Of a DNA stretch of 64,000 bases, positions 1 through 20,341 are shown in pieces; the stretch's first letter is position 1; the number at the start of each line of letters is the position of its first letter. The DNA is from Acarospora socialis. Its lineage: Eukaryota > Ascomycota > Lecanoromycetes > Acarosporales > Acarosporaceae. The notes below the pieces were generated by a model that worked only from the letters and a program-made list of their open reading frames with translations, was not told the origin of the DNA and made no database searches. The stretch lies in NCBI GenBank assembly GCA_025617375.2, contig JAMYGW020000001.1:1798001-1862000 (forward strand), read 5' to 3'. The position numbers and the translations under genes are program-made.

Positions 1-842
1 AGAGTCAGACAGCCATAATCCGTATGCGCCCCGGCGCGAACACGCCTCTGGAAAGAATCGATGGAGGTAGGAGGGTAGTGCAAACACGCGATGAAGTGAT
101 TCTTTTCCGTGACAAAGGCATCAAAGGCATCGGACTCGAGTCCCACGGCCTCGGCCAGAACGCTCAACAATTCCCGAACGACGCCATGGCACGAGTCGAA
201 GAAAGCGGCCAGCTCCCTCCGCATCGTCTGCGAGTCGGCATCAAGAAGCCACTGATTCGGCTTCTCCTCGTCGTCGTCGCGGTACATGCCAAAGAACTCT
301 TTGAGGTCAGAGGTGTCTGGATTGGCGGCCAGTTTGAGCGGGCAGCTCCATCCCTGGCTCGGGCCCCTTCCCTTGTCCATCTTTCCGAGGATCTTCATCT
401 TCTCGGATTCGGGCTTGGAGAAGAAGGTGCGGGAGATGGAGAAAAGCTTGTTGATGCCATCCTGAGTGATGTTAGGCTTTTTCAGATAGACGAACCTGTT
501 CCTTGGCCGTCAGTCTATATGTCTATCGAAAATGAGATTGGTTGTAGAGTTTCGTTGTAATCTTTTTCCGTTACTTTGAAGATATAGCCGGCTGTCACTT
601 CAACATTCCCGACTCGACAGGCAATGAAAAATTCCTCCCTTAACAATACCAGTGGGATGTAAGGGTAGAGGATATCGAAACAAAGGAATAAAAGTGTACC
701 CGATATTGCGCAATGCTTCGTAGAACTTGCGTCTCTCTGCATTTCGCGCAGCAGCCAGGTCAGAGTCCTTCGAGCTCAAGAGGGGATAGTCGATAACGAG
801 GAGTTCGGCTGGCACCGCCGCCTCATCTGGAGTACTACCCAT
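1..842 (-). CDS. 2-oxoglutarate/Fe(II)-dependent oxygenase, 3' end outside the window
   Basis: Isopenicillin-N-synthase-like oxidoreductase of the DIOX_N plus 2OG-FeII_Oxy family, which uses 2-oxoglutarate, Fe(II) and O2 to hydroxylate, desaturate or cyclise small molecules. The start MGSTPDEAAV at 842 is followed by an acidic N-terminal segment and FYEALRNIG. A 204-base intron (699-496) joins this to FVYLKKPNITQDG, the usual DIOX_N order (N-G-F-x-Y-L-K). Exon 2 runs off the window. The first iron-binding pair is visible in the HTDYGCLT stretch at its end. The second iron His and the Arg that binds 2-oxoglutarate must lie beyond base 1. It is divergent from the adenylating enzyme across a 750-base gap, which suits a tailoring oxidase of the same pathway. 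The substrate cannot be deduced. Confidence 0.85.
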
Positions 843-1596
843 TATGTAAACAACAACGACAACAATAACAAACCGTAGGTAGCGAGGATCGTTAAAAGAG
901 AAAAGCGAGTTTGGACCGAGAGCGGAGAAGAATATATGACACTCTTCACACCGATTGCATTGCTTACTTACTTGTATCACGTTTTATAAGACGAAAAACG
1001 AAAACAATATAAAAAGACAGTATTAGGTGCAGCCAAGGCCCAAAACGGTTCCTTGGCGGTAATCCGGTCAGCGCCTTCTCCGGTGACAGACGGAGAGAAC
1101 GGGCCGACCGTCAGCCCTAGTCTTGTCAGGGCTTGCCTAATCTCGGACATTCGTTGAGGTATGACGCTGCTTCACTGGAACACGATTACTTTGGAATTGG
1201 CCACATGTTCCAAATCCATGGAGATGTACTGTATCTCCCACGCGATTCATGGACAGGTGTCGCTTCAACGCGCGTATTACAGCTACGCGACTGCCAATCC
1301 ACGAGCCGTTCTGGAAGACGGGAGTCCTTCGGCGGAGGCCGAATCGGAGCAAGCTCGTATTTCGGAGTTGGCACGGAGGTGGGGGCAGAAAACGTCGTTG
1401 TGAGGCGTTGCGGCACGGTCAGGCTGGACATCGCCTTATGGGATGCGAAGCCCTAGGCCTAGCTTATTTGGGAAACTTGGTTTTGTGGATGGGGCTCCAT
1501 TTATATGCCGGCGGTTGGAGTGGTATATCCCTGGGACTTCTGAGTCGGCAGGAATGCAAAAAGACGTGCGAAAAGTTGCACAAAAGTTTGAACGCC
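843..1596. promoter_or_regulatory. Divergent intergenic region
   Basis: Lies between the oxygenase (minus) and the adenylating enzyme (plus) and should hold both promoters. No recognisable operator or other gene is seen. Overlapping open frames on both strands here have no protein character. Confidence 0.4.
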
Positions 1597-3334
1597 ATGA
1601 TCTTTCAATCGAAGCTACCAAGCCCTGCACGTCCTACTTTGGACGTTTGCAGTTACATCTTCGAGTCGCGCAGGAACTACCCTCCTGATAGAGTTCTCTA
1701 CAAGATGGACTGCAATAGTGAAACACTCACCTTGGCACAACTAGAGCAGAGAAGTCGAAAGTTGGCATGGACTTTGGTCAACCGCTTCGGGATCAAGCGT
1801 GGAGATACCGTGGCTATCCTGGCCCGAGATTCGGTAAGATTGTTGGAGAATCTTCGTACCGAGCGTTTACTGACCCCGCCAGCTGCTCTATCCAATTGTA
1901 TATTTGGCCATACTTGCCGCGGGAGCGACCGTGGAACTGATTCCGGTGCAGAAGGAATTGACCACCAACGATGTCATTGCTCGAATGAAGCAGGCAGAGA
2001 CAAAGTTGATTGTGACAGACTCAGTGTTTCTGACCATGGCGGCTGTGACTTCGGCCTCTCTTGGCGGCATTCCCCTATTCCTGCCTGAGACGGAGCATGG
2101 CCTGTTCGGACCAGAAGTGCCAGAGTACCATGATTTCAAGATTGACAAGGAGGAGGAGGCCCAAGTCTCGGTGGCCTTCGTCAACCGCACGAGCGGTTCG
2201 ACCGGCGGCAAGTTGAAGACTGTCATCACCACCCATGCGCATTTCATCGCCGCCCTGGAAACTACGTTGCACACTGTGCCGAAGAATACCAACCCAGACA
2301 CCGACACTTGGCTCTCTTCGCTGTCTTTCGGATTTTTCATCAATTCGAAGCTCCACATCGGGCTCAACATCTTGTTGGGAATTCCTGTGGTCATCATGGA
2401 CACCGTTTTCGGTCCGGACATACTCGATATTGTGGAGCGCCACAGGATCACGTTCCTGTTCGTTCCCCCACCAGTCGCGGCTTCGTTTGCGAAGCTTGAT
2501 GGCTCGAGAAAGAGCGTCGATGTCGGCAGTATAAAGTGGCTGCTTTCCGCAGGAGCCTCGATGCATGAAGGTCTTCAGCAAGCGACGTCGCGGAAATTGA
2601 ACGGCGTCCATCTGGACCTTGAATGGGGTACTTCCGAGACTCTGCTCATTGCTATCCAAATGGACGGGCACGCCTCTCCAGCCGGCTCCAGTGGCGTCCT
2701 TGTCAATGGCATTGAGGCCAAAGTCATCGATACCGTCACTCACGAGGAGCTTGAGGCTGGCGAGTCTGGGGAGATCTATATCCGCAATACCGCCTGCCGA
2801 TACGCTGGCTACAAAGCCAATGATACTGCTAACCGAGAAACTTTCGATGGCGAAGGATGGTTCCATAGCGGCGACTACGGGTACATAGATGATGATCGCA
2901 ACGTCTTCATCACGGACCGATTGAAAGAATTGATTCGCGTTGGTGGTGGCTATGGTGTCCACATCTCGGGAACAGAGCTTGAGTCCGTCATATTCGGCCA
3001 TCCTGCCGTCTCGCAAGTGGTCGTGACGGGAGTGCCGGATGTGGCAGCGGGAGTAGAGCGACCGACTGCGTTTGTAATCCTGACGCCGGAGTGGCAGGAA
3101 AAGCAAGACGTGGCTCTCACAAGCCTTCGTCAGTGGGTCAGGGAAAGGCTGACGGGATTGCAAACTCTAAATGGAGGCTTCTTTTGCCTTACAGAGTTCC
3201 CTCTGATAGGCTTCAAAATCAATCGACGTGCGCTGAAAAGCTTCGTGGTGAACAGCAGACTGAAGGACAAAGCTGATGCATGGACTATGAATGGGACTTC
3301 AGTCGTTATCCCTGAATTAGTGCGGGTTGCCTGA
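1597..3334 (+). CDS. AMP-dependent acyl-CoA synthetase/ligase (adenylating enzyme)
   Basis: ANL-superfamily enzyme, 562 residues in two exons (1597-1833, 1883-3334; intron 49 bases). It should activate a carboxylic acid as an acyl-AMP and pass it to CoA or another acceptor. The join gives GDTVAILARDS-LLYPIVYLAILAAG, which restores the family pattern. Visible motifs are the phosphate loop TSGSTGGKLK (the usual Pro before the Lys is replaced), GWFHSGDYGYID, DRLKELIRVGG, and near the C-terminus GFKINRRAL, whose Lys matches the catalytic lysine of GK[IV]xRR. No carrier-protein or condensation domain follows, so it is free-standing rather than an NRPS. The nearest groups are 4-coumarate-CoA ligase-like and fungal pathway ligases. 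The substrate is unknown; an aromatic or shikimate-derived acid fits the DAHP synthase next door (inference). Confidence 0.88.
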
Positions 3335-4121
3335 TCGTTCCAGAAAGTAGTTATACATGATAGTAACGCTCAATGGTTCAGATATACGATTCCCTAGAAT
3401 CAAGACCAACTTGAACTGTTTGAGAGATTGGACGTTTGAACCGAATGGAAACCTTGCATTTCCTCAATGAATGCCAACCCACAACAAGCCCATCTGTATT
3501 GTCATTCATTTCAACTTGCCGGAGCTCTTGCTGGAAGTTCCGTCGATGGACAGACCAAGCAACTTTGTGTCAGTATCTGCCTATGGAAAACCGGGAACAT
3601 TCGTTGCCAGTCGTACGAGTGGGTCAGTTGTGAGACACCTCCTTCCTGGATGAACCACGCATATTAGAGCCAATGGATATCAAGGAGCATCATGGGCCAT
3701 AGCCTTACAGAACGTGGCTCAAATCCGGCCCTTGTCCGTATCAAAATAAGCACTAAAATCGTTCCGGAACTTGATGACCCTCCGAAGCTTGGCAGTAGGG
3801 GGCCCACTGTCGGATTTGAAGTTGTTTTTTGCGGCGAAGAACAGTGCTGACTGCATTACATTCTATGATAGACGGGAGAAATGAAGAGCTAGACTCGAGA
3901 TTGTAGCTAGCAGAATTCACGGCAAATATGACCGTAAAAAGAGCCGTGTACGGGGTCCATCTTGTTCTGGAGATAGAATAAGTAGTTTGGTCAGTGCAGA
4001 TTCCAAAAGGACCCGGGACTCACGAGAGTCTGTTGAAATCACCGTTTGAGCCTGGATAGCTCTCAACAGCTTCTTGCTTGTATTCAATCTATTTATATAG
4101 GAGTCTTCTTCCAACGCCCGA
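3335..4121. other. Intergenic, no gene seen
   Basis: Terminator of the adenylating enzyme and promoter of the DAHP synthase gene, which lie in tandem. Short open frames around 3430-3670 show no family features. Confidence 0.4.
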
Positions 4122-5409
4122 ATGGCTCCCTCAACAGACTGGTCACCGTTGTCATGGTGCGATCGACCTGTTGCTCAGGCAATCACTTACTCGGATCTGC
4201 TCTGCTGGAATATGCGTGCAAGGACCTGGCCGGATTGCCCCCTCTTATATCCAATGTCGAAATAGAAGATCTCCGGCTGTCCATGGCCCTGGCATCCAAT
4301 GGACAAGCTTTGATCATTCAAGCCGGAGACTGTGCGGAAGCTTTCAATGACGTCCAAGTCGATATTGTTAATAGTAAAAGAGCTCTCATTCGTGAACAAG
4401 CCGGTATGCTAGAGAGAGCTCTTGCTATTCCTGTGTTGCAAATCGGCCGAATTGCTGGAAAATACGCGAAATCACGCACGATATCCAAAGAGTCCCTTCC
4501 CTGCGGTAGCATTGTTGATACCTTCCGCGGCGACAATATCAACCATCCCCTGGGAAAGGAAGCGAGAGCTCCAAAGAAAGACTCGTTCTCGGTCATTACC
4601 TGGCCGCGGCCACTCTGTCGATGTTACGCATCAGTAACGGATTCAACGTCGATGAGCGTTCCTGCAAGACGGGCATGTTCACTTCACATGAAGCTTTGCA
4701 TCTCCCACTTGAGTCCGCCCTGACCAAAGGCGCATACAACACGTCCACCCATATGCTCTGGGTCGGGGAACGTACGCGAGACATCGCCTGTGCTCATCTT
4801 GAGTATATCCGTGGACTGCGCAACCCGATCGGTGTCAAGCTGGGCCCAACGACGGATCCTTCGGACCTGGTACAGTTACTTTCGACAATCGATGCCGACA
4901 AAGTTCCCGGGCGAGTAACGCTGATTACCCGATTAAGTGCTCCGATGGTCTGCCATGTCCTTCCACCGCTCATTAAACAAGCAGAGTTCAAGCCGGTTTG
5001 GCTGTGTGATCCGTGTCATGGAAACACGTTCGCAACGGCTTCGGGGATTAAGACACGATTCGTCGAGACGATCATTGCGGAGGTCAAAGCCACGCATGTT
5101 GTGCACCGCAGTTGCAACTCGCAACTTGGTGGTCTGCATTTGGAGCAGACGGGCGAAGAGGTTACAGAGTGTGTTGAGTGGGATGGAGGTGTGGACGAAT
5201 TCCAATTTCCGAGTTACCGCTCGCTCTGTGATCCACGACTCTCACGGCCTCAAGCGCTGAAGGTTGTCGAGGAGTACGCCAGCTTTGTCAAAGCGACGTC
5301 TTCTGACTGGCAGACGGTAGTGACTAGCAGCGTCTATGAAGGAGACAAGTCAATCGAACCACAGCATCATCCTGAGGTTGTGGATAATATGGTAGTGGTC
5401 GAGGCGTAG
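4122..5409 (+). pseudogene. Class II 3-deoxy-D-arabino-heptulosonate-7-phosphate (DAHP) synthase with two frame breaks
   Basis: DAHP synthase condenses phosphoenolpyruvate and erythrose 4-phosphate, the first step of the shikimate pathway. The start at 4122 gives DWSPLSWCDRPVAQ, the class II N-terminal signature. Known metal-site residues are all visible: Cys in QAGDCAEAF, His in DPCHGNTF, Glu in GGLHLEQ and Asp in CDPRL. FRGDNIN, GERTRD and GRVTLITR also match class II. Two places change frame with no room for an intron: about 4195-4203 (after TYSD, before ALLEYACKD) and about 4570-4582 (after RAPK, before LVLGHYLAAA). Each behaves as one missing base. The gene is therefore broken, or the assembly has two local errors. 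A class II enzyme beside an adenylating enzyme suggests a dedicated precursor supply for a secondary pathway rather than the housekeeping enzyme, which in fungi is often class I or AroM-linked. Confidence 0.85.
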
Positions 5410-5852
5410 CAAACAGGTCCTTTTGGTCAAAGTTACAACACCTACTTGGATCGGAGAAGAAGGAGAAGAATGGCGTGGTCGCAAGTAAAGCTCTGATGTC
5501 AGGGGGCCACTGCTTATAGAGCTCGATCTGGAGCGTTTCGAATTAGATTTTCATAGACTGTGAGGAAGGAAGTTGGTAGCACGCAATCATTAGAACAGTA
5601 CAGAGGATCAGTCCGTGGCAATTAGCTTGTTATCAAGCATTTTCCAAGAACACAGCTTGTTCAGACAGTTTAGAAACCTGAACTATGTACACCTGGAGTA
5701 AAACGGTCCTGGCTGTAGAGTACGAGTACTCATGAGTATGGGGATGAGGTCTCGGTTACAAAAATGTATGCACACGTGACACAAGACTTAGTACTCTATG
5801 AGGTTCCATTTTTTATTTCTACATTAAAGAAAGAGTGCAGCTTTCATACGTT
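5410..5852. other. Convergent 3' region, no gene seen
   Basis: Separates the DAHP synthase gene (plus) from the uncharacterised 481-residue gene (minus), so it should hold two terminators. Nothing else is recognised. Confidence 0.4.
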
Positions 5853-7298
5853 TCAATCCCCCCTCGGCATGAAGGTCCTAGTTACATTGCAGAGTTGAAG
5901 GACGAATTTTGGAGAATTTGGAAGTGACTTGCCCGCCCTCTCCGCATCTGCCAGAGACCCTCCTGGTCCAACCACGATGACATTCTCCGGATATAATGTG
6001 CCGAGAAGAGCGAGAAGTATGACGTTGCTACTTGCCGGAATGAGATGAATGCCGCCATCTTTAGCTGTGACAAGCCCGATATCTGCTCTCACCAAAATGT
6101 CTTCTGCAGAATGAACGCCGGCAGGGACTGTAAATCCTGATCCATGTGAAGCCTTGTCGACACCGACGGCGCTATATGCATAGCGCCGGCCACGGCTTAT
6201 TTGACCTAAGTCAACAATTGCCTCCCTGTTCGCTGAAAATCGAACATGAAGCTTGAGGACACGACTTGGCTCCTCCTTGGTTGTAGAGTCTGAATCGACA
6301 GCAATCCAGGTGGCTTGTACTGCCTCTGCGGGAGAAGAAAGCATCGCGACGTCGACAGAACCGGGCTTTAGTGTATCCGTGGCCATGGCGATCTCAGACC
6401 GTGGAGCTGTGTAGTAATCTTGATGCTCGTTACGGAATACGAGCGAAGTACTCGTGTCGTCTAGCTTGACAGGAAGGTACCAAAGAAGACGTCGCGCATC
6501 GCTGCCAGCCACGAAAGACGGCAGGATTAGTCCTTGCGAGTACTGGCATCCATATCCCTCAATAGAGGCAAGTTCGGGAGCGAGAAGCGAGATGGCGGCT
6601 TTGAAAACGCCGTTCTGGGTCAGCGATTTGGTCATTAGTTCTGCAAGAAACAGTGACCTGTTCTGCTCTGTATACCTCATCCCGAGATTGCGGCCCTTCT
6701 TTCCCGGTATCAGGATGACAACTTCTTCGAAGTTTTCGAAGGGAAGGAGAGCGTCACGTAGGAGGACCATCTGGTGAAGGTATTCGTTATAGATTTGCAT
6801 CAAGTGCCCTTGGCCACGAGGTCCAAACATAAGCTCTGCTACGGGCTGTTTGAGGAGATGGCCTTCGCATGGACTGCGAATGGCATATTTCGTGTCAAAC
6901 TGTGCGTCCCTCGTCTCAGCGGCATATTGGACCAACTTTCTTCCGATCGTGACGGCTTGATGCGCTATCTCCTTGCGTCCAGCGTCCGTCGTTGGGAGAT
7001 GGAGGCTTGATTCTCGCGTGCCTAGATCAAGGTTCGAAGATAAATTGTCGAGCAGCATGTGTCGAGCGGTTGGCCCATTAGGAGGGTCAGATCCGAGGTG
7101 ATGCAGAACTGTTTCCAACAAAGGTGCGCAGCCTTCAACCACTTGTCTCGCAGTATAATTGCCCGCTGGTAAAGACCAACCGCCGCCAGTCATGGTAGTT
7201 CCATTGCTTCCATTTGCTGTCGGCTTGGTGATGCGACCTATGGTAAGATTGTCGAGGACGGGAACTTTGAAAGGCTGCTGAACAGCGGTAGGGGACAT
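5853..7298 (-). CDS. Uncharacterised 481-residue cluster protein
   Basis: Single uninterrupted frame of 481 residues; I do not recognise the family. The start MSPTAVQQPF at 7298 is followed by a Gly/Ser/Thr-rich leader (about residues 25-47). A first half carries LPAGNYTARQVVEG, a conserved-looking CEGHLLKQPVAELMFGPRG around 145-165 and IPGKKGRNLGMRY around 200. The C-terminal half is Gly- and Val-rich with SRGRRYAYSAVGVDK and ENVIVVGPGGSLADAERAG. There is no signal peptide and no clear membrane helix. No Rossmann GxGxxG at the start, P-loop, heme Cys or PLP motif stands out. It ends convergently to the DAHP synthase and starts divergently from the methyltransferase, so it sits inside the cluster and may be a core or accessory enzyme. 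Codon structure and length support a real gene. Confidence 0.75.
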   Translation of the reverse strand: MSPTAVQQPFKVPVLDNLTIGRITKPTANGSNGTTMTGGGWSLPAGNYTARQVVEGCAPLLETVLHHLGSDPPNGPTARHMLLDNLSSNLDLGTRESSLHLPTTDAGRKEIAHQAVTIGRKLVQYAAETRDAQFDTKYAIRSPCEGHLLKQPVAELMFGPRGQGHLMQIYNEYLHQMVLLRDALLPFENFEEVVILIPGKKGRNLGMRYTEQNRSLFLAELMTKSLTQNGVFKAAISLLAPELASIEGYGCQYSQGLILPSFVAGSDARRLLWYLPVKLDDTSTSLVFRNEHQDYYTAPRSEIAMATDTLKPGSVDVAMLSSPAEAVQATWIAVDSDSTTKEEPSRVLKLHVRFSANREAIVDLGQISRGRRYAYSAVGVDKASHGSGFTVPAGVHSAEDILVRADIGLVTAKDGGIHLIPASSNVILLALLGTLYPENVIVVGPGGSLADAERAGKSLPNSPKFVLQLCNVTRTFMPRGD

Positions 7299-7839
7299 TG
7301 TTGAAAGTGAAGTGTTCTGCTGCTTGACCGCTGGTGAAGAAAATAATCTATAAGCCTAGGAGGATTGCGTGTTAGTCCTCGATTGTCATAGAATTTTTCA
7401 CACCTACACTTACCTGGAAGGTGATAGCAAGGCCCACGACTCCTGTCCCAAAGGTCCCAAACGATTTGGCAGCGCACCAGACCCGAGGACTGAGCATTGG
7501 CCAGTGGCTGGACGATTGACAAGAAGGATCACGGCCATCAAAGCAACAAAAGAAAGTCCAGATATAGTGAATAAGGCACGTGATGACCAATCAACTCCGA
7601 ACATGTCGGACACGGTACCTTGTTGAGGAACGGAGGACTTGCGGACTTTGCAAACCGCCCCTGCATTTCCGTTGCGCCGCTTGCAACCGAGATAAGGCTG
7701 CAGAACCAGCCCTACACCATCGATATCAAACTCTCTTTAGGTGATATGTAAGAGTCTGAGCTGCATCTCAAATATCAGCACCATTAACCCTCGGCTGAAG
7801 AAGCGGTAACTTTCTGTTCATGAGTGATTATTCTGTGCA
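7299..7839. promoter_or_regulatory. Divergent intergenic region inside the cluster
   Basis: Shared upstream region of the 481-residue gene (minus) and the methyltransferase (plus). Several overlapping short open frames are present, but none resembles a protein. A binding site for a cluster regulator would be expected here (inference). Confidence 0.4.
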
Positions 7840-8869
7840 ATGGAAGATCCGATTACTTTTTCTGATTTGCAAACCTCCCTGCTACGGAAACCCGTTGATG
7901 AGTTTCATGGTACGGAGGGTGTATATCTTCTTCCCCATCACCGCGAGGAGATTGAGCGCCTGCAGAAACAGCATGAATTCATCAAATCCGCCACGGGTGG
8001 GCAATTGACGCCCATCCACCTTGGCACCAAGGCAAGAGTCCTCGACTGCGGATGCGCCGATGGTCTGTCCACATCACCTCTGCATTGAAAAGCGTTTTGT
8101 TGACCGCACCATAGGCACGTGGTTGGCAGATTTGGGACAGCTCCAAGATGGCAACCCTGCCTCACTATCACTTCACAAAGTCGACCTGGGCAGTTCTCTC
8201 TTCCGACGACACCGAGATTTGGATCTTAGAGAGCACGACATCCGCAGACCCTTCCCGACCTCGTGGGAATGGAACGACAAGTTCGATTTGGTTCACCAAC
8301 GCTTGCTAGTGTGGGGAATTGGTTCCGATGAGTGGACCGCTGTCATTCATACACTTACCGATGCTGTCAAGCCGGGAGGCTATATACAGCTAGTGGAGGC
8401 TGAGTCGGTCTCGTCCTCATATACCGAAGAGCAGCAAGAGCAGAAAAAACTGGCCATTGTTCAGGATTGGTCATGTTCATCCTCCGGGATGAATGTGCAC
8501 ATCTGGAAGAAGATGGCGGGGATCCTCGAAAACTGTGGCTTTCTGGACATTAGGGAAACGCCGTTTGACCTTGGCTATGGGGCAACCGCGAAGCAACCTG
8601 GAGACAGACAATGGACAGCCGAATTGTTGCCCAAGTCTTTTCGGCATTTAGCGCGCAAGATGCCTGGTATGTTCGATTTCAGAAAACCAATATCGAGCAT
8701 GGCCAAGAGCGGATTGCTAACCTCTTCACTTGCAGAGGGCGGAATCCCGGGTGTTGCTCGCGATGCGGATGAATACATGGCGTTTCTTGATAGACTCGTC
8801 ATTGAGATGAAGGCTGTTGGCTATACGCCGAAGCTACGATGGATCACGGCGAGGAAACCACCCCTTTAG
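7840..8869 (+). CDS. LaeA-like SAM-dependent methyltransferase
   Basis: 302 residues in three exons (7840-8062, 8115-8666, 8736-8869) with introns of 52 and 69 bases. The second intron has GTATGT, GCTAAC and TTGCAG signals. The first join restores the SAM-binding motif I, VLDCGCADGTWLADL. Further landmarks are FDLVHQRLL, the motif II/III region of LaeA/UMTA-like enzymes, and VKPGGYIQLVEAE, the post-III strand typical of class I methyltransferases. The third exon begins EGGIPGVARDADEY. Family members methylate small molecules or act as regulators of secondary metabolism. Within this cluster a tailoring role is more likely than the global LaeA regulator, because the long LaeA N-terminus is absent. 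All motifs are intact. Confidence 0.87.
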
Positions 8870-9598
8870 ATGATTGGACATGTAACCCATAGCCGTTCTA
8901 AGCTTTTGGAAAGTGTATTATCATGTTGATATCGCAACAAACCAGAAATTGCAAAAAGTCACTTAACTCTGGATGTCAAAATAATCTAAGCGAAGCTGAC
9001 TAAAGTGCACGTATCACGTGGGCATAAACCCAGGACTGGAGAGGTCGCCGTGTAGTCCTAATTTTGGCCCCTTTCCTCCTTTTCTGCCCCCTTTCCAACA
9101 GAAGCTCAGCCTCGTTAATGGTAGCGGAGTCTGCAGAATATACTCTCGGGTGAGGTTTGTAAGCTGGAGTTCTACGAATGTTTTGCTCCAAGTATCTCCG
9201 TAGTGCCGGAGGAAAACGTCGCCCCCTGGTCAGCCAACGGACGTCCAACTCCGACAGTGCAGGAGATAGCAAGCACTTGCACAGTTGATGATCGGAAGAA
9301 TGCTGCAACGGAGAGGATGCAATGGGAAGACAATTCCCATTACCATGGTTTGCAAACAAAGCGTTTTGTCAGCAAGGTGTTATGTTAGCATTTTGCCGAG
9401 TCGCTGTTCTGAAACGGTCATGTCTCTCTATAAAACTTTTCTGGGTGAGGAGCATCCCTCAAAGTCGTCTCTTCTTTTCTCTCCCGCTCTTTCTCCTGCA
9501 TCACGCTCTCAACCGACCTGCTGCTACTTGCAGTGATTCTTGCCTTGCTTGAATTGTCAGGGAAAACGCCAACTCATAGTCTTTCTCATATTGCATCG
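8870..9598. other. Intergenic, no gene seen
   Basis: Between the methyltransferase and the MFS gene, both on the plus strand. Overlapping short open frames near 9000-9550 on both strands have no family features. Confidence 0.4.
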
Positions 9599-12017
9599 AT
9601 GTCAGAGACCGGTCAGGAGACATCAGAAATGTCGTCGAAGCTGGACTTGGAGAAGGACGCGATCTCACCCGATGGCCAAGCCAAGTCAGATTCCTCAGCT
9701 ATTGTTGAGAACAAGGGCAGAGCAATCACGGGTTTTCGGGTGAAGATATTCTCTCCTCGTGATTCGAGTGCCACGAAGCACTTTGTACGAGAGTTTGGGC
9801 TGATAGTTGCTATATAGTGGGCTTTAACAATACTCAGCATGCTCTCCAGCATATTTCTGTTTTCACTCGACAATACTGTTCTTGCCGATCTGGTTCCAGT
9901 CATTGTGAATTAGTTCCATCGAGTCGATCAGATTACATGGCTTTCCGTCGGGTATGTTGCATTTTCTTGCACTGTTCCGCTCCGGATTGGCTGGGAACAT
10001 GTACTATGCTTCTGATTCGTGTAACCTGTTCCTCGGAGTTCAGAACCTCAAAAGTCTTTCCATGTCAACTCCGGACTACAAGCCGACTGTCATGAAGCCA
10101 GAAGCGTTACCTCTTTACCTCAATGGTGGAAATCCTAGCTGATTTGAAAAGGTTCACAATCGGAGCTGTCGTTCTCGCGCTGTCTTTCGGCAAGCTTTAC
10201 GCTACCTTTGATGCCAAATGGCTGTATATCGGGTCAAGTGTCTTTTTTTATGCAGCGTCTATACTTTGCGGGGCCGCGCCAAACATGGCGGCGGAGATCA
10301 TTGGTCGTGTGCTAGCAGGTGTTGGCGGAAATGGCATGTATCTAGAGCGTTGACCCTTATGATTACTCACACTCAAGAGCAGGAGCAAGGAGGTTACCTG
10401 GCATCCATGTGAGTTCGAAGTTACAGTTTGGGTTCAAACAAGCTGATAGTCGAACAGAGGGATTGTCTGGGGTCTTGGCACCGTTCTTGGACCTGTTGTC
10501 GGCGGCGGATTTGAAAAGGTTGATTGGCGCTGGGCTTTCTAGTATGTATTCTCTGATAAGTAAAAGCCGTGAATGGAGGTTCAGGGACAAGATGCTACAG
10601 ATTACCTTGTGCCTGGCTAATGGAACCCGCAGCATCAACCCCATGATCGGCGTCTTTTGTGTCGGGCTCTGCATCGTCTGTGTTCCATATACGGATCCAA
10701 ACGCTGAGACATCATTCAGTCGTCGCTTCGCTCGATTTGATTATGTGGGATCGACTTGATCACGGCATCTATCACCTCGTTGATCATGACAATCAATTTT
10801 GGCGGCACGCTTTTTGCTTGGAGCAGTGGTCGGACGATCGCTCTCTTCGTTGTCGGTGGAGTACTAGCTATAGCCTTTGCCATTCAGCAAACTCTCTGCA
10901 TCTTCACCCGCGTTGAGGATCGTGTCTTTCCAATCCAGTTTCTCAGCAATAGAAGCGCTGTTCTATTGTTCATCTGCGCTGCAGCTTCCAATACGGCATG
11001 CTTTGCACGTAAGTTTTCTTCGTTCCAACTTTTTGACCTTACGCTTAGTTATGTTAATCTCGAAGCCATCTACTATATCCCAATATATTTGTAAGTAAAA
11101 GCTGGCTTGTTTAATGGAGGGAAGACTAAACTCTCTCACAGCCAATTCACGCGAGGCGACAATGCCCTAGAGTCTGCGGTTCGCCTGCTGCCGCTCATCT
11201 TCATCCTTTCCGCCACGATATTCATCAACGGTCAAATCATTACACGATATGGCTGCTTTCAAGACTGGTATATTACTGGTAGTGTCCTTGCACTTATTGG
11301 CGGTGTATTGATGTGTAAGTACTTGATCATAATCATAGCTGCATTGCAAGTATAATAACCTCGACATGAAGCACGGATCACAACCACCACATTTACTGGA
11401 GCTATATACGGCTATGAAGTGCTCTTAGCTCTCGGCACAGGATCCTATGTCCAAGCTGGGTATACCACCATCTACGCCTACGTTGCCCCTCAGGATGGAG
11501 CGTACGCAGTCAGCTTCATGAGTCTTGGTATGTTCATCTCCATACTCTACATCTTGCAGCAATTGTAGTCAAGAGCTTTATGCTAATCCAGTATTAGCAC
11601 AACTTGGCGGCATAGCCCTCGGCCTTTCAATTGCCGGTGCAGTCTTCGTGAATGGAGCTGTGAACAACCTGATTCCAGTGCTCCCGAGTCTGAGTAACTC
11701 TCAGATCCTGCAAGTCGTTTCTGGCACGAGTAACGATTTCTTCAACACCTTATCTTCCGATGTTCGCGAGGAAGCTCTCGTCGTTATTGTCGATTCTTGA
11801 GAAAGATGTCAGTACCCGAGATTGCAATGATCATGCAACCTCTTCAACCGCTAATCCGCGACTCAGCTTTATCCTCGTGTATGTTGGCGCCGCCGTTGGC
11901 TTAGTGTGCTCTGTTTTCCTCAAGGTAAGGAAACGCACCAACGTTCGTAAAACGTGTCTTTTTGCTGACGTCGCATAGCGTGTCAACATTCATAAGTTGA
12001 TGACAGGACAAAGTTAA
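9599..12017 (+). pseudogene. MFS drug/toxin exporter (DHA, TRI12-like), apparently broken
   Basis: Many-exon major facilitator gene. It starts MSETGQETSE at 9599; a first intron (9740-9817) joins FR to WALTILSMLSSIFLFSLD, transmembrane segment 1. Later blocks match fungal 14-TM exporters in order: TWLSVG, GKLYATFDAKWLYI, RVLAGVGGNGMYL, WGLGTVLGPVVGGGFEKVDWRWAF, FTRGDNALESAVRLLP, GTGSYVQAGY and FILVYVGAAVGL. The last exon, 11979-12017, ends TGQS. Splice sites explain most frame changes. An in-frame TAG at 9911 and single-base frame losses near 10341, 10753 and 11795 remain. The family pumps secondary metabolites out of the cell, so this was probably the cluster's exporter. Unless the sequence has errors, it is no longer functional. 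The transporter identity is firm; the exact exon set is not. Confidence 0.78.
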
Positions 12018-12970: not shown

Positions 12971-14983
12971 TTGCACATCAACACAAAGTCAGGCATGTTG
13001 ATTACAGTCCACTCAAACAGTACTTTCGCACCATGGTCCGATTTCAGTGAGCAATTCTCATGTGTACTGTGTCGACGGTGCATGGACTACTGTGAAGAAT
13101 GTCGTCTGCTGGCTTCATTATTCATCGCTACGGCAGGGAAAGGTTGTGTCATATGCAAACTTGTCAGAGCTGCCGTCGAGACCTTCGTTGTTGACCCAAA
13201 GCAGCGCGAGTCATGCTTCGTGGGTCTAGTTGGTGGGTTGTGTCTCTATGTGGGCCCGAGCAAGACGCGCATGCTCATCGATGTGTATTGTTTGCCGTTG
13301 GCGATATGTCCTTGGGACGATGGCATCGACCGAAAGAACGACCTGTCTGGATCAACCGCGTCGCTTGACTCCTGGAGGCAGGCGAAAGAGTGGCTTCAGA
13401 CTTGCTCAGATGAGCATGATAAATGTCTGCCTCGAACAGAGGCGCCTCCGACCAGACTGCTAGACCTGAACGTCGATTCTAGTCATATAAAGCTACTCGA
13501 TGTCGCTGAGAGCAAGGTGGCCGAGAGTACGTCTCAACCTTTTGCATTTGGTCGTCATTCCCTGCGGGACTGATGGATTCGGCTTGCAGAAACGGCAAGC
13601 TTCCGATATGCTTGTTTGAGCCATTGCTGGGGCACGACTGGAGGCTCTCTCGTAACCAGGACTTCGAACATCCGACAACACAAAAGAGGCATTCCATGGT
13701 CCAGGTTCCCTCCGACATACCAGAATGTAATCACATTCCTCCGCTGGCTAGGGATAAGATATCTCTGGATCGACTCACTGTGCATACTCCAAAACGATGA
13801 CGAGGACTGGCGCAAGGAATCCTCGATGATGGCTTCAATATACGCAGACGCATACATAACGATCGCTGCTACAGGCGCTGTGAACAATCAAGCCGGTCTC
13901 TTCGTCGACGGAAATCTGACAACCACCCGGGTACCCTGTCCCTACGGTGATGGTGAGAGCGTAGATTTGCACATGAGGAAAGCGATATCTCATGAGCTGT
14001 TTTGGGAAGAGGATGCTGTCTGCAATGACGACCCAAATGACGATTCAAGGTTGCCTCTACTCTCACGGGGCTGGGTGTACCAGGAGCGCATATTGTCTCC
14101 AAGGGTTCTCCACTTCACTCGCGATGAGCTTGTCTGGGAGTGCATGCAGACTTCGGATTGCGAATGCGGTGCACGCACACCTCATGTAACGCCTCTCAAG
14201 GGGCAAATGTCGGAGCCGCTGGTGGCTGGCGATTTGACAGCAGACGGTATCAACAATGCCTGGCACGATATTGTCACAGGCTATACTTCCAAGAGTCTGA
14301 CTTATGAGAAAGACAGACTGCCTGCCCTTTCTGGACTGGCAAAACGGTTCTGCCAGATGAAGCCTGGTATGGAATACCTAGCTGGACTATGGAGGGATAG
14401 CGTAGAGCTAGATCTGCTGTGGTTCATTGCGGGAAAGGCGGAGACTGAAGTCATCAATCCTCGTTTGCCTAGTTGGTCCTGGGCTTCAGTGAACGGAAAG
14501 GTTTGGTACAAGTCCCACAACAAAACTGACAAGCTTGCGATTGAGATTCTACACGCCGAATGCGACTTGCTCGATCCGGACCCCACTGGAGAGATCCGAT
14601 CTGGCAAGATCATTCTCAAGGGCATGATAGAGCCGCTCCAGAGCCTATCACCGCGCGATCTGTCCGGGGTTAAGGTGGTCGTTACGCCGTTCGAGGAGGT
14701 GCCAGAGTATGGCTCCAGCTACACCATTGCTCTCGACGACAAAAGCTTTGACTTCGTGACCATCTATTGGGACACACGGGAGTATACAGCCGAGGGTCTC
14801 TATCTGCTGAAGGGGTCAGAAACTAAGTACGCTGTGCATTTTCTTGTCCTCATCAATGTAGATCAAGTGTCCACGGATCGCTTCCGGCGGATTGGGATGG
14901 GGACCTGGGAGCATTCGTCGTCGCACGAAAGGCCGTCGCGTCCGTTTCCCAATTCGACACCTCGGACGATTACCTTGGTGTGA
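12971..14983 (+). CDS. HET-domain (heterokaryon incompatibility) protein
   Basis: Two exons, 12971-13526 and 13590-14983, about 649 residues. The 63-base intron join gives VAEKTASFRYACLSHCWG, the hallmark opening of the HET domain (PF06985). It continues with GIRYLWIDSLCILQNDDEDW, ASIYADAYITIAAT and LLSRGWVYQERILSPRVLHF, the classic conserved blocks. The N-terminal part is Cys-rich (CVLCRRCMDYCEECRLL and GCVICKLV), as often seen before HET domains. HET proteins trigger or control cell death on fusion of unlike strains and are common in polymorphic accessory DNA. The start is uncertain: ATGs at 12971 and 12995 are in frame and an upstream exon is possible. The HET core looks whole. Confidence 0.88.
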
Positions 14984-16837: not shown

Positions 16838-18871
16838 CTAGCGCAGAGGCATCTTCACATCTTGCACTCCTCGCTTCAATACTTCGTTCAATCGCCATCT
16901 CGGTGGTTGAACCATTAATTGACCGTGCCCGTCAAATTTCTCCTGCCGTTTCCACTCCTTCTCCATCTCGAGTGTGACACCTTCAGGCAGAGGCTCGGCA
17001 CCGCCAGCGACACCAGAGGAGAACTTGAGCTGCAACACACTACCAATCTCATCACATGCCGAAAGCAATCTGTCGAGATCGTCCTTGGTATGTGCAGCAG
17101 ACACACAGAATCTGGCCCTCGATGAAACGAGGGGTGTTGCTGGATAGCCCACCACTACCACGGAAATCTTGCGCTTCAACATCTCGTGCGAAAAAGCAGG
17201 CATCTTAGCAGGGTTGTAAAGGAGCAGCGGAATAATCGGAGAATCATCGTGACCGTAGACGATGAAGCCAAGTCGTTTCAACCCGAGACGGAGGTAACGC
17301 GAGTTGAATGCCAGACGCTGCAGTCGCTCCTCTCCTTGGCCGGGACTGATCTCTCCAGTAATGCATCGCAACGCGCTGGATATCTGGACCAACACAGGAG
17401 GGGTGGGGGATTCTCCAAAGACCGTTCCGGCATTTGTAGTACGTAGCTTCTCGATGATGGCTTTGTCGCCTGCGATATAGCCACCGTTGGCCCCAAAAGA
17501 CTTGGTCAGGGTGCCCATAAGGATATCGACTTCAGACGTATCGATGCCGAAGTAATCGCATACACCTCTCCCTTTCGGTCCCAGCGCTCCGATCGAATGA
17601 GCTTCGTCGACGAAAAGGTTGAATTTGTACTTCTTCTTCAACGCAACGATGCCGGGGAGATTGCACATGGAACCTTCCATTGAGTAAAGACCCTCTACCA
17701 CCACCAAGATCTTCTTCCATGGACGGTGGGTGCGGGGCTGACCTTGTGAGATCACCTCGCGCAAGAGCCTCTCCAAGTCCTTGACGTCGTTGTGTTTGAA
17801 CATCTCAATCATGGCGCCGGACAAACGAGCACCGAATCGAATGGACGCGTGGTTCAATTCGTCAGAAATGATGAGACAACCCTTACCAACCAAGGCTGGG
17901 AAAGCCGTCGCGTTAGTACCAAAACCCATCGAGAAAACCATGGCGGCAGGTTTACCGACGAACTTGGCGATAAGATCCTCGACTTCAAGATGTAGATCGG
18001 AGGTGCCGGCGTCGCCTCGAGGACTGGCCGTAGTCATTCCGTACTTCTTCACCGCCTCTTCCACCGCATCCGCACAAGGACCTTCGGATTGTGCAAACCC
18101 AAGGTAATTGTAAGAGCTCATGTTCAGAGTTTCCGTGGTCGTGCCGGTGAGCTGAAAATGCAGGTTGTGGTCGTCTGATTTGCGATCCACAAGGGTGATG
18201 TAACGTCCTGGGACGCCAGTAACCGGTCTCGAGAAGCAATCGTTGATCCGCATCTTCAAGCGACGAACATAGAAATTGTCAAAGTCGCTATTCAGCGGAG
18301 CATAACCGTTCATGGCCTGGAGATGTCGGTAGTGTTCTTCGCGGAAACGTTTGCCAAAGAAGTCACGAACGTGACCGAAAATGATGAGGATGAGATAGCT
18401 GATGTAGGTTGTGAGGAGGTAGTAGTAAGGCGGCTCGTCCATGACTGGTTCTGGGAATTCTCCACCCTGAAATCGACTCGTATACCTGTGGCTCTGGCTC
18501 CCCAGCGGCCCGAATTGAGCATGTTGCCTGGCTATCCGTCTGGCCTCTGCCGGAGAAGGCGGCTGGAAGAGGGTGGTCGGTGGCTCATCCATGTTTGTGG
18601 TGCCGCCTGTCGCGGTTGTGAGGGAAATAGTCGGTAGTGACAGTGACGGTGAGTTCAGTGGTGTTCCCTGGTAATGTGCCGCTGCGAGCAGGGCTGAGGT
18701 TGCCGATTGTGGCTCTCTCACCTTGGGAGATGTAGAGAAGAACGATGCGATTCTGGTTGCTTTCGTGACGGATGGACGGCGAGAGTTCCCGCCCTTCTCG
18801 TTGGACACGGGAAGGGAGGGCGAGTTGGTAGGTACGGGGATGGCGAAAGGGTTTGTCGGTCTTCGAGGCAT
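16838..18871 (-). CDS. LCB2: Serine palmitoyltransferase subunit 2
   Basis: 677 residues in one exon. Catalytic PLP subunit of serine palmitoyltransferase, which joins serine and palmitoyl-CoA into 3-ketosphinganine, the first step of sphingolipid synthesis at the ER. A low-complexity Pro/Ser N-terminus (about 1-145) precedes a membrane segment around 149-168 (YLLTTYISYLILIIFGHV). The fold-type I aminotransferase core follows: NMSSYNYLGF, RGDAGTSDLH, DELNHASIRFG, VDEAHSIGALG and the PLP-lysine motif GTLTKSFGANGGY near residue 457. Length is slightly above the yeast protein because of the N-terminus. Its 5' end faces acetoacetyl-CoA synthetase across 1.5 kb. Nothing suggests decay. Confidence 0.96.
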   Translation of the reverse strand: MPRRPTNPFAIPVPTNSPSLPVSNEKGGNSRRPSVTKATRIASFFSTSPKVREPQSATSALLAAAHYQGTPLNSPSLSLPTISLTTATGGTTNMDEPPTTLFQPPSPAEARRIARQHAQFGPLGSQSHRYTSRFQGGEFPEPVMDEPPYYYLLTTYISYLILIIFGHVRDFFGKRFREEHYRHLQAMNGYAPLNSDFDNFYVRRLKMRINDCFSRPVTGVPGRYITLVDRKSDDHNLHFQLTGTTTETLNMSSYNYLGFAQSEGPCADAVEEAVKKYGMTTASPRGDAGTSDLHLEVEDLIAKFVGKPAAMVFSMGFGTNATAFPALVGKGCLIISDELNHASIRFGARLSGAMIEMFKHNDVKDLERLLREVISQGQPRTHRPWKKILVVVEGLYSMEGSMCNLPGIVALKKKYKFNLFVDEAHSIGALGPKGRGVCDYFGIDTSEVDILMGTLTKSFGANGGYIAGDKAIIEKLRTTNAGTVFGESPTPPVLVQISSALRCITGEISPGQGEERLQRLAFNSRYLRLGLKRLGFIVYGHDDSPIIPLLLYNPAKMPAFSHEMLKRKISVVVVGYPATPLVSSRARFCVSAAHTKDDLDRLLSACDEIGSVLQLKFSSGVAGGAEPLPEGVTLEMEKEWKRQEKFDGHGQLMVQPPRWRLNEVLKRGVQDVKMPLR

Positions 18872-20341
18872 CGCGAAATCTTATGACGATAAATGCTGCT
18901 ACCGGACTGAGGTGGTGGAGTCAATTGATATTGACGAGAATCAATCACCCCTCAATTGATCTTGTTGGATATCGTTCCGTGGTGCTTACGATTGAGGCGA
19001 AGCAGTCTCGAGTCTAATTTGAGAGCAACAAGACCTGGCTGCGTGGAGACACCACGTCGCCTCAGCCGTGTCAACTTGTATAAGGTCTCCAGACGAGAGG
19101 TTTAAGAAAGACGTAAGATCTGTGGGAGAGGTAAATACTGTAATAACAGAAGATTGTCGAGACGCCTCGGAAGGAGAAGGTGCTGGTAACGAAGGTGTAA
19201 TAAAGTTTTCCCTATGGCGCTAACGGGCGGTGATGGGAAACCGTCGCGTTCTTTCTCTTCCGAAAGCCGATGAGGTCAACGCAGTCAAATCGCCAAAGCT
19301 GAGGTAATTTGGGAGAGGTGTGGGGATGTTGAAGAGACGGAGAAGATTCCGGTCTTGGGGATGCTTGCAACAATAATAACGGTGAGATGTGATTATGCTG
19401 CGATATGGGCCTCTTCCTCGCGCCAGCCACAACAATAATGCTGTGCAGGTTCACGTCCAACACCCTATTCCTGCCAGTTGCAAACCAACTACCTATACGA
19501 CCAGGCTTGGATTGGGGAAAAGTTGAACTAGAAGGAGGTGTGAAGGAAATCGATAAGGAAGATTGAATAGTAGTGCAGGGGTTATCGACGATAATAACAA
19601 TAATACTCTAAGAGCAATCTCGAGGACAGCCCCCTTGGTGGAGATTACAGTACTTTGTAATCCGTACGTGCTTACCTTACGGATCCGGTACCGATGACTA
19701 ATCCTTCCTTTGGGGGCTGTTGCTGGCCAGCCGCAGCATAAGATTTCGACGGCGTCAGGGGCAAAGTACGCTAAAGGGCTCGTTTTCCGATTGCGGTGAT
19801 TACCCTCCTTACGTCATCACTAAAGGGCGCTTTTCTTGCTTAGTCATTCATATGAATCGCACTGTCGGGGAAGGATCCAAGTGTGAATCTTTGCTGTCTT
19901 CGCTCGGTCTTGGTTAGGGCAAGGTGAGTAAGTACATGAGTCATCTAATATCTATCAATGTTCGTTGCCATAAGTCCCCGATGTGATTTCTACATCCGGG
20001 AGACATGATTGAACTTCGAAGTATTCTCGTACTTCAAAAGTCTAGAACTATCGTATACGTAGAGGAAGGAGAAGGATTCTTCATACACATGTTGAGGTCG
20101 AACCGGTTGTAGAAAATTTGTCGGCGTCTCTGAAACCTCAACCTGCTGTGTAACTCTTCGCCAAGGCACACGACCGAGGCCGAGAGAACTCAAGGTACGG
20201 AGTAAATGCCGAGAACATGCCGTCTCCACACCTCAGATATCGGAAGCCGGCTGCCGGCCAAACGAATTACCTAGTAGCATTGACAACATCCTCAAAAATC
20301 AAAGTCACAACAAATCGGATTGGTGCATAACAGAAGCTACC
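18872..20341. promoter_or_regulatory. Divergent intergenic region
   Basis: 1.5 kb between LCB2 (minus) and acetoacetyl-CoA synthetase (plus). It should hold both promoters and long leaders. No protein-like frame or RNA gene was recognised. Confidence 0.4.

Follow-up and report, generated by a model that had tools for sequence, protein, structure and literature searches.

A partly decayed candidate gene cluster of Acarospora socialis, with a type IIB-like class II DAHP synthase and a protein family without described function

The stretch of Acarospora socialis DNA analysed here (hereafter the window; 64,000 nucleotides, G000:C1:1798001-1862000, in a genome of 31.1 Mb and 38 contigs) begins with six adjoining genes, for an oxygenase, a ligase, a class II 3-deoxy-D-arabino-heptulosonate 7-phosphate (DAHP) synthase, a 481-residue protein, a methyltransferase and a transporter of the major facilitator superfamily (MFS), which we discuss as a candidate biosynthetic cluster. 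The closest protein relatives of the window genes are those of filamentous ascomycetes, judging by the names among the matches listed, and the G+C content across the cluster ranges from 0.475 to 0.512. Pfam matches and open frames place the six gene families side by side, as an earlier note made from the sequence alone had described them:

1..842, minus strand, extending beyond the left edge as far as about G000:C1:1,797,547 (L006:9547): 5′ part of a 2-oxoglutarate (2OG)-Fe(II) oxygenase gene (DIOX_N, 2OG-FeII_Oxy)
1597..3334, plus strand: 4-coumarate-CoA-ligase-like ANL enzyme, two exons (intron at about 1834-1882), intact (AMP-binding, E 6.2e-34; AMP-binding_C, E 1.5e-10)
4122..5409, plus strand: disrupted gene for a type IIB-like class II DAHP synthase (PF01474; tblastn of P0121 and P0122)
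5853..7298, minus strand: intact gene for a 481-residue protein whose family is undescribed, one copy in the genome (P0001 match; 250 relatives)
7840..8869, plus strand: S-adenosylmethionine (SAM)-dependent methyltransferase, two exons (intron 8063-8114, placed by eye), apparently intact (Methyltransf_23)
9599..12017, plus strand (right end as in the earlier note): MFS transporter gene, disrupted (Sugar_tr, MFS_1; frames read by eye)

This gene list stands as first drawn up, but the decay of the DAHP synthase and MFS genes had gone unnoticed. The DAHP synthase gene is recognised by PF01474 in the window pieces (E 2.9e-26 and 1.1e-72, compared with 2.1e-121 for the intact relative P0121) and, when two intact relatives of 433 residues (P0121 and P0122) are used as tblastn queries, is found split over three frames (4122-4196, 4199-4582 and 4543-5406). 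The pieces are 85-100% and 87-92% identical to P0121 and P0122, respectively, with three gap positions (a three-residue gap) in the last piece. Introns do not explain these frame changes because the pieces abut, and this genome has no uninterrupted frame for the enzyme, the intact copies being those of relatives. The stretches GDCAE, DPCHGNT, LEQTGEEVTEC and CDPRL are still legible in the pieces and are presumably of the kind that holds metal ligands. The MFS gene gives a weak match at 10096-10353 (Sugar_tr, E 1.8e-6; MFS_1, E 5.4e-5, under its cut-off) and contains an in-frame stop at 9911-9913 that no visible intron removes, as well as a frame change near 10345 (by eye); its first in-frame stop was dropped as a lesion since an intron accounts for it. 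The sequence indicates that this copy of the cluster has begun to decay, whereas the ligase and 481-residue genes are intact and the methyltransferase gene apparently so. It could be argued that the frame changes are assembly errors in a cluster that is whole and active, the lesions being known from one assembly and the neighbouring ligase and 481-residue genes being intact, but two separate frame changes in the DAHP synthase gene are accompanied by an in-frame gap relative to both P0121 and P0122, the MFS gene has a stop in addition to its frame change, and conserved neighbours are open (e.g., a 680-residue frame at 16838-18880), and we regard such errors as quite improbable.

A putative role of the DAHP synthase in secondary metabolism is suggested by its gene context, and its form was compared with those of known types. 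As described in the available part of PMC6435475, type IIA enzymes have an N-terminal extension together with alpha2a/alpha2b helices and act mostly in primary metabolism; type IIB enzymes keep the extension, are devoid of the alpha2a/alpha2b helices, act mostly in secondary metabolism, display no aromatic amino acid allostery and are dimers in solution. This tie between type IIB and secondary metabolism agrees with the remark, made when the locus was first read, that class II DAHP synthases are sometimes dedicated to secondary pathways in bacteria. By its alignments, the fungal group has the shape of the bacterial type IIB, i.e., with the extension kept and the regulatory insert absent. Indeed, residues 4-172 of P0121 align to residues 7-175 of 5uxm (in which the extension corresponds to residues 1-59, according to the available part of its description), and the window pieces span the same part. 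P0121 gives a single unbroken alignment with 6bmc (PA1901, type IIB), and at the insert site its alignments skip about 46 residues of 5uxm, 39 of 5huc and 38 of 2b7o. In addition, 120 relatives were aligned with the second class II DAHP synthase of this genome, which has a long loop (G000:C5:792101-793705), and the alpha2-beta3 loop, measurable in 103 of the 120 (17 fragments being left out), counts 9-46 residues in these relatives and 18 in P0121, versus 63 in the C5 copy. The bit score of P0121 is higher with the type IIA structure 5uxm (288.9) than with the type IIB structure 6bmc (236.9), so that the missing insert may reflect a separate loss within the fungal group.

The 481-residue protein is 90% identical to P0001 over 480 residues without a gap and has 250 relatives at E <= 0.001. 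Neither a Pfam nor an NCBIfam model matched the family, and no solved structure did, though its fold model is confident; the route had been called ordinary-looking, which undersells this family. Arg139, Cys142, His145, Glu170, His173 and Asp180, numbered as in the reference sequence, are invariant in the family. Four of 12 members gave a weak DinB_2 match, the best at E 0.015. Profile comparison did not bear out chorismate mutase (AroQ fold) or DinB as remote kin, their hhalign probabilities (0.1-0.5%) being about as low as those of the TetR and hydrolase control profiles (0.0-0.3%); note that the comparison sets sampled part of each family, with 27 chorismate mutase sequences, all from Streptomyces (two cut loci dropped), and 26 of 30 DinB sequences (four with more than one stop dropped).

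Some bacteria also carry this family, with about 30-38% identity between bacterial and fungal members. Of 21 loci, 14 have, in actinomycetes, a TetR-type gene directly upstream of the relative (the TetR group has a fifteenth member, which in L009 stands apart from it), and 9 have a gene for an alpha/beta hydrolase downstream, while in Paenibacillus an MFS gene is found directly upstream. These small gene sets are those of the bacterial loci L009-L029, and one TetR and four hydrolases among them were run against Pfam; L036 and L037 duplicate genes of L012 and L009. One ligase-like match was found, in L023 and about 10 kb away, and none of the 62 pattern matches on viral contigs encodes a relative. 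With a match in 16 of 295 sampled Streptomyces genomes (two of them partial), the gene is an accessory one in Streptomyces. This bacterial setting means that the protein might protect against an aromatic compound rather than make it: a TetR, hydrolase or MFS neighbour is typical of inducible detoxification, and the accessory status points the same way. However, in fungi the gene travels with pathway-entry genes, and at such low identity the bacterial and fungal members may differ in role, so we keep a resistance or detoxification enzyme, acting against the product and outside its biosynthesis, as the less favoured though still serious option.

The ligase is 94% identical to P0241 over 462 residues without a gap, carries both AMP-binding and AMP-binding_C as ANL enzymes should, and has the 4-coumarate-CoA ligase 3a9u as its top PDB relative (E 1.7e-36). 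The oxygenase shows DIOX_N at 3-509 of the window (minus strand, E 3e-11) and 2OG-FeII_Oxy in L006 just left of it (E 5.1e-5); the HTDYG and MHRVIEP stretches are present in its frames, and its top PDB relative is the thymine dioxygenase 5c3o (E 2.6e-17). A possible Zn2Cys6 regulator was seen by eye beside the oxygenase (L006:7400-9100; C1 about 1,795,400-1,797,100); Pfam gave no call there, and the cysteine motif seems to switch frame. The apparent frame change of the methyltransferase was dropped, as a 52-nt intron accounts for it and the spliced protein passes Methyltransf_23 (28.3 bits for a cut-off of 27, compared with only E 0.099 unspliced). Its Pfam ‘Amanitin’ matches fall under the cut-off and were regarded as chance, and no PDB match was obtained up to E 0.1. 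Thus, of the label ‘LaeA-like methyltransferase’, the methyltransferase is confirmed and the LaeA part is loosely supported, the matching models being generic. A HET-domain (heterokaryon incompatibility) gene at 13574-14983 of the window adjoins the cluster on its right-hand side.

Profile matches along contig C1 list no ketosynthase within about 120 kb of the gene set, the closest ones lying at 1,671,204-1,672,007 (about 125 kb to the left) and 2,065,211-2,066,067 (about 255 kb to the right), and no condensation domain is listed on this contig, all 25 matches of the genome being on other contigs. That no classic backbone enzyme lies with the set, as the earlier note had it, is upheld by these listings. 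Nor does the gene set hold a nonribosomal peptide synthetase-like (NRPS-like) enzyme with adenylation, thiolation and thioesterase domains (A-T-TE), as in the acy and alf clusters, the ligase having AMP-binding domains only.

The trio of DAHP synthase, ligase and 481-residue protein was compared across genomes using the best 120 matches listed per gene (out of 7809, 357 and 250). Within these lists, in none of which a size value occurs twice, the DAHP synthase and the ligase have 30 contigs in common (24 below 80 kb), the DAHP synthase and the 481-residue protein 13 (11 below 80 kb), the ligase and the 481-residue protein 11, and all three genes 7. Wherever both are given, the locus tags of the DAHP synthase and the 481-residue protein are 3-5 numbers apart:

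Pyrenula: DAHP synthase Q9160_008823, ligase 008824, 481-residue protein 008827
Xylographa pallens: DAHP synthase MMC27_008452, ligase 008451, 481-residue protein 008449
Peltula: DAHP synthase M1816_000404, ligase 000403, 481-residue protein 000399
Chaenotheca: DAHP synthase M4579_005132, 481-residue protein 005136
Aspergillus hancockii: DAHP synthase BBP40_003531, 481-residue protein 003534

For the DAHP synthase and the ligase, the tags differ by 1-3 numbers in Wetmoreana, cf. Caloplaca, Piccolia and A. tanneri. Conserved co-location, which the earlier note had set as its check, was therefore found for these three of the six genes, and since the trio recurs together, the scattered homologues that were to refute the proposal are not what is seen for them. 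The presence of the trio in fungi as distant as Aspergillus, lichen-forming fungi and Dothideomycetes, which is broader than many secondary clusters, might also be read as a sign that the genes adjoin through a shared primary role, i.e., as a housekeeping module for aromatic salvage or activation. However, the genome has a further class II DAHP synthase on C5, presumably serving primary metabolism, besides class I enzymes at four loci, so that primary metabolism can obtain its aromatics without the cluster enzyme; moreover, this enzyme has no regulatory insert, and the decay of the cluster copy in this genome means that it is dispensable. We thus hold a primary role to be unlikely.

Altogether, we consider it fairly probable that a fungal biosynthetic cluster without a backbone enzyme is present here in a partly decayed copy and that it would work as follows. 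What we observe is which genes are present, that the trio recurs and that the insert is missing; we infer every chemical step. The insert-free DAHP synthase would escape feedback by aromatic amino acids and send more carbon into the shikimate pathway, an aromatic acid from this pathway would be activated by the ligase as an adenylate or CoA ester, and the 481-residue protein would carry out a committed step on the activated acid or an intermediate close to it. The oxygenase and methyltransferase would then complete the product, and the MFS protein would export it. With the DAHP synthase and MFS genes broken, the pathway would here be switched off or else draw on the remaining DAHP synthases (class I at four loci, class II on C5). 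Accounting for the set as the source of a shikimate-derived small molecule, as first suggested, is favoured by the type IIB-like shape and the recurrence of the trio, although production may have ceased here, where the two genes are broken. Several points weigh against this interpretation. Shared contigs were judged by equal contig sizes and locus tags and not from the DNA itself, and 107 of the 120 listed relatives of the 481-residue protein are on no contig matching a listed DAHP synthase, so that this protein may often stand alone and what the best-120 lists establish is recurrence and not universality. In addition, no DAHP synthase was found near the bacterial relatives (tblastn with three fungal queries against 21 loci and 13 short ones), and the DAHP synthase could possibly retain regulation through other sites.

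A bolder proposal, which we put forward tentatively and think less likely than not, sees in the 481-residue family a new fold of enzyme, present in fungi and a few bacteria. In fungi it would carry out the committed step that defines the scaffold of an aromatic pathway, undescribed though widespread, and the DAHP synthase feeding this pathway, type IIB-like and free of feedback, would have arisen separately from its bacterial counterpart. If the cluster reading is right, many sequenced fungi (among those named, Aspergillus, Penicillium and lichen-forming species) bear a pathway that cluster finders based on polyketide synthase, NRPS or terpene backbones would overlook. The pathway would be recognisable by the juxtaposition of an insert-free class II DAHP synthase, a 4-coumarate-CoA-ligase-like enzyme and a member of the 481-residue family. 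It would also offer a DAHP synthase as a feedback-resistant candidate for making aromatics, together with an enzyme family without a described function or a matching solved fold.

Among known systems, PA1901 of Pseudomonas aeruginosa (phenazine/pyocyanin synthesis) likewise keeps the extension and lacks alpha2a/alpha2b, according to the available part of PMC6435475; however, it is bacterial, whereas P0121 is fungal and scores closer to the type IIA structure 5uxm than to the PA1901 structure 6bmc. The ascocorynin cluster of Ascocoryne sarcoides resembles the trio in being a fungal cluster with its own DAHP synthase, which is co-expressed and, in its authors' interpretation, increases the shikimate flux towards an aromatic product (PMC9047271, available part). 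In contrast, it is built on the NRPS-like A-T-TE enzyme AcyN, and the same part of PMC9047271 mentions neither the 481-residue family nor a separate ligase and does not state the class of the DAHP synthase, which is class II here. Elsewhere on our contig, about 0.8 kb separates a class I DAHP synthase gene (C1:22768-25519) from a 1058-residue open frame with an AMP-binding match, an arrangement resembling the ascocorynin and allantofuranone clusters, in which an NRPS-like enzyme and a DAHP synthase occur together. We take a DAHP synthase length of 387 residues, that of alfS in the latter cluster, to be typical of class I, as against class II in the trio. The allantofuranone cluster alf, from what is available of PMC12105029, comprises alfS (387 aa), an O-methyltransferase and a C6 transcription factor and thus shares with our locus a DAHP synthase of its own and a methyltransferase, but it has the NRPS-like backbone AlfA, whereas our locus is without one. 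With these two clusters in print (PMC9047271 and PMC12105029, as far as available), a fungal cluster with its own DAHP synthase is a known kind, and that part of what had been called a rarely described fungal route is not new. No description of the trio was found in what searches of open-licence PMC papers listed, and what is new here is that the DAHP synthase is of class II and free of the insert, that an NRPS-like backbone is missing and that the 481-residue family is undescribed.

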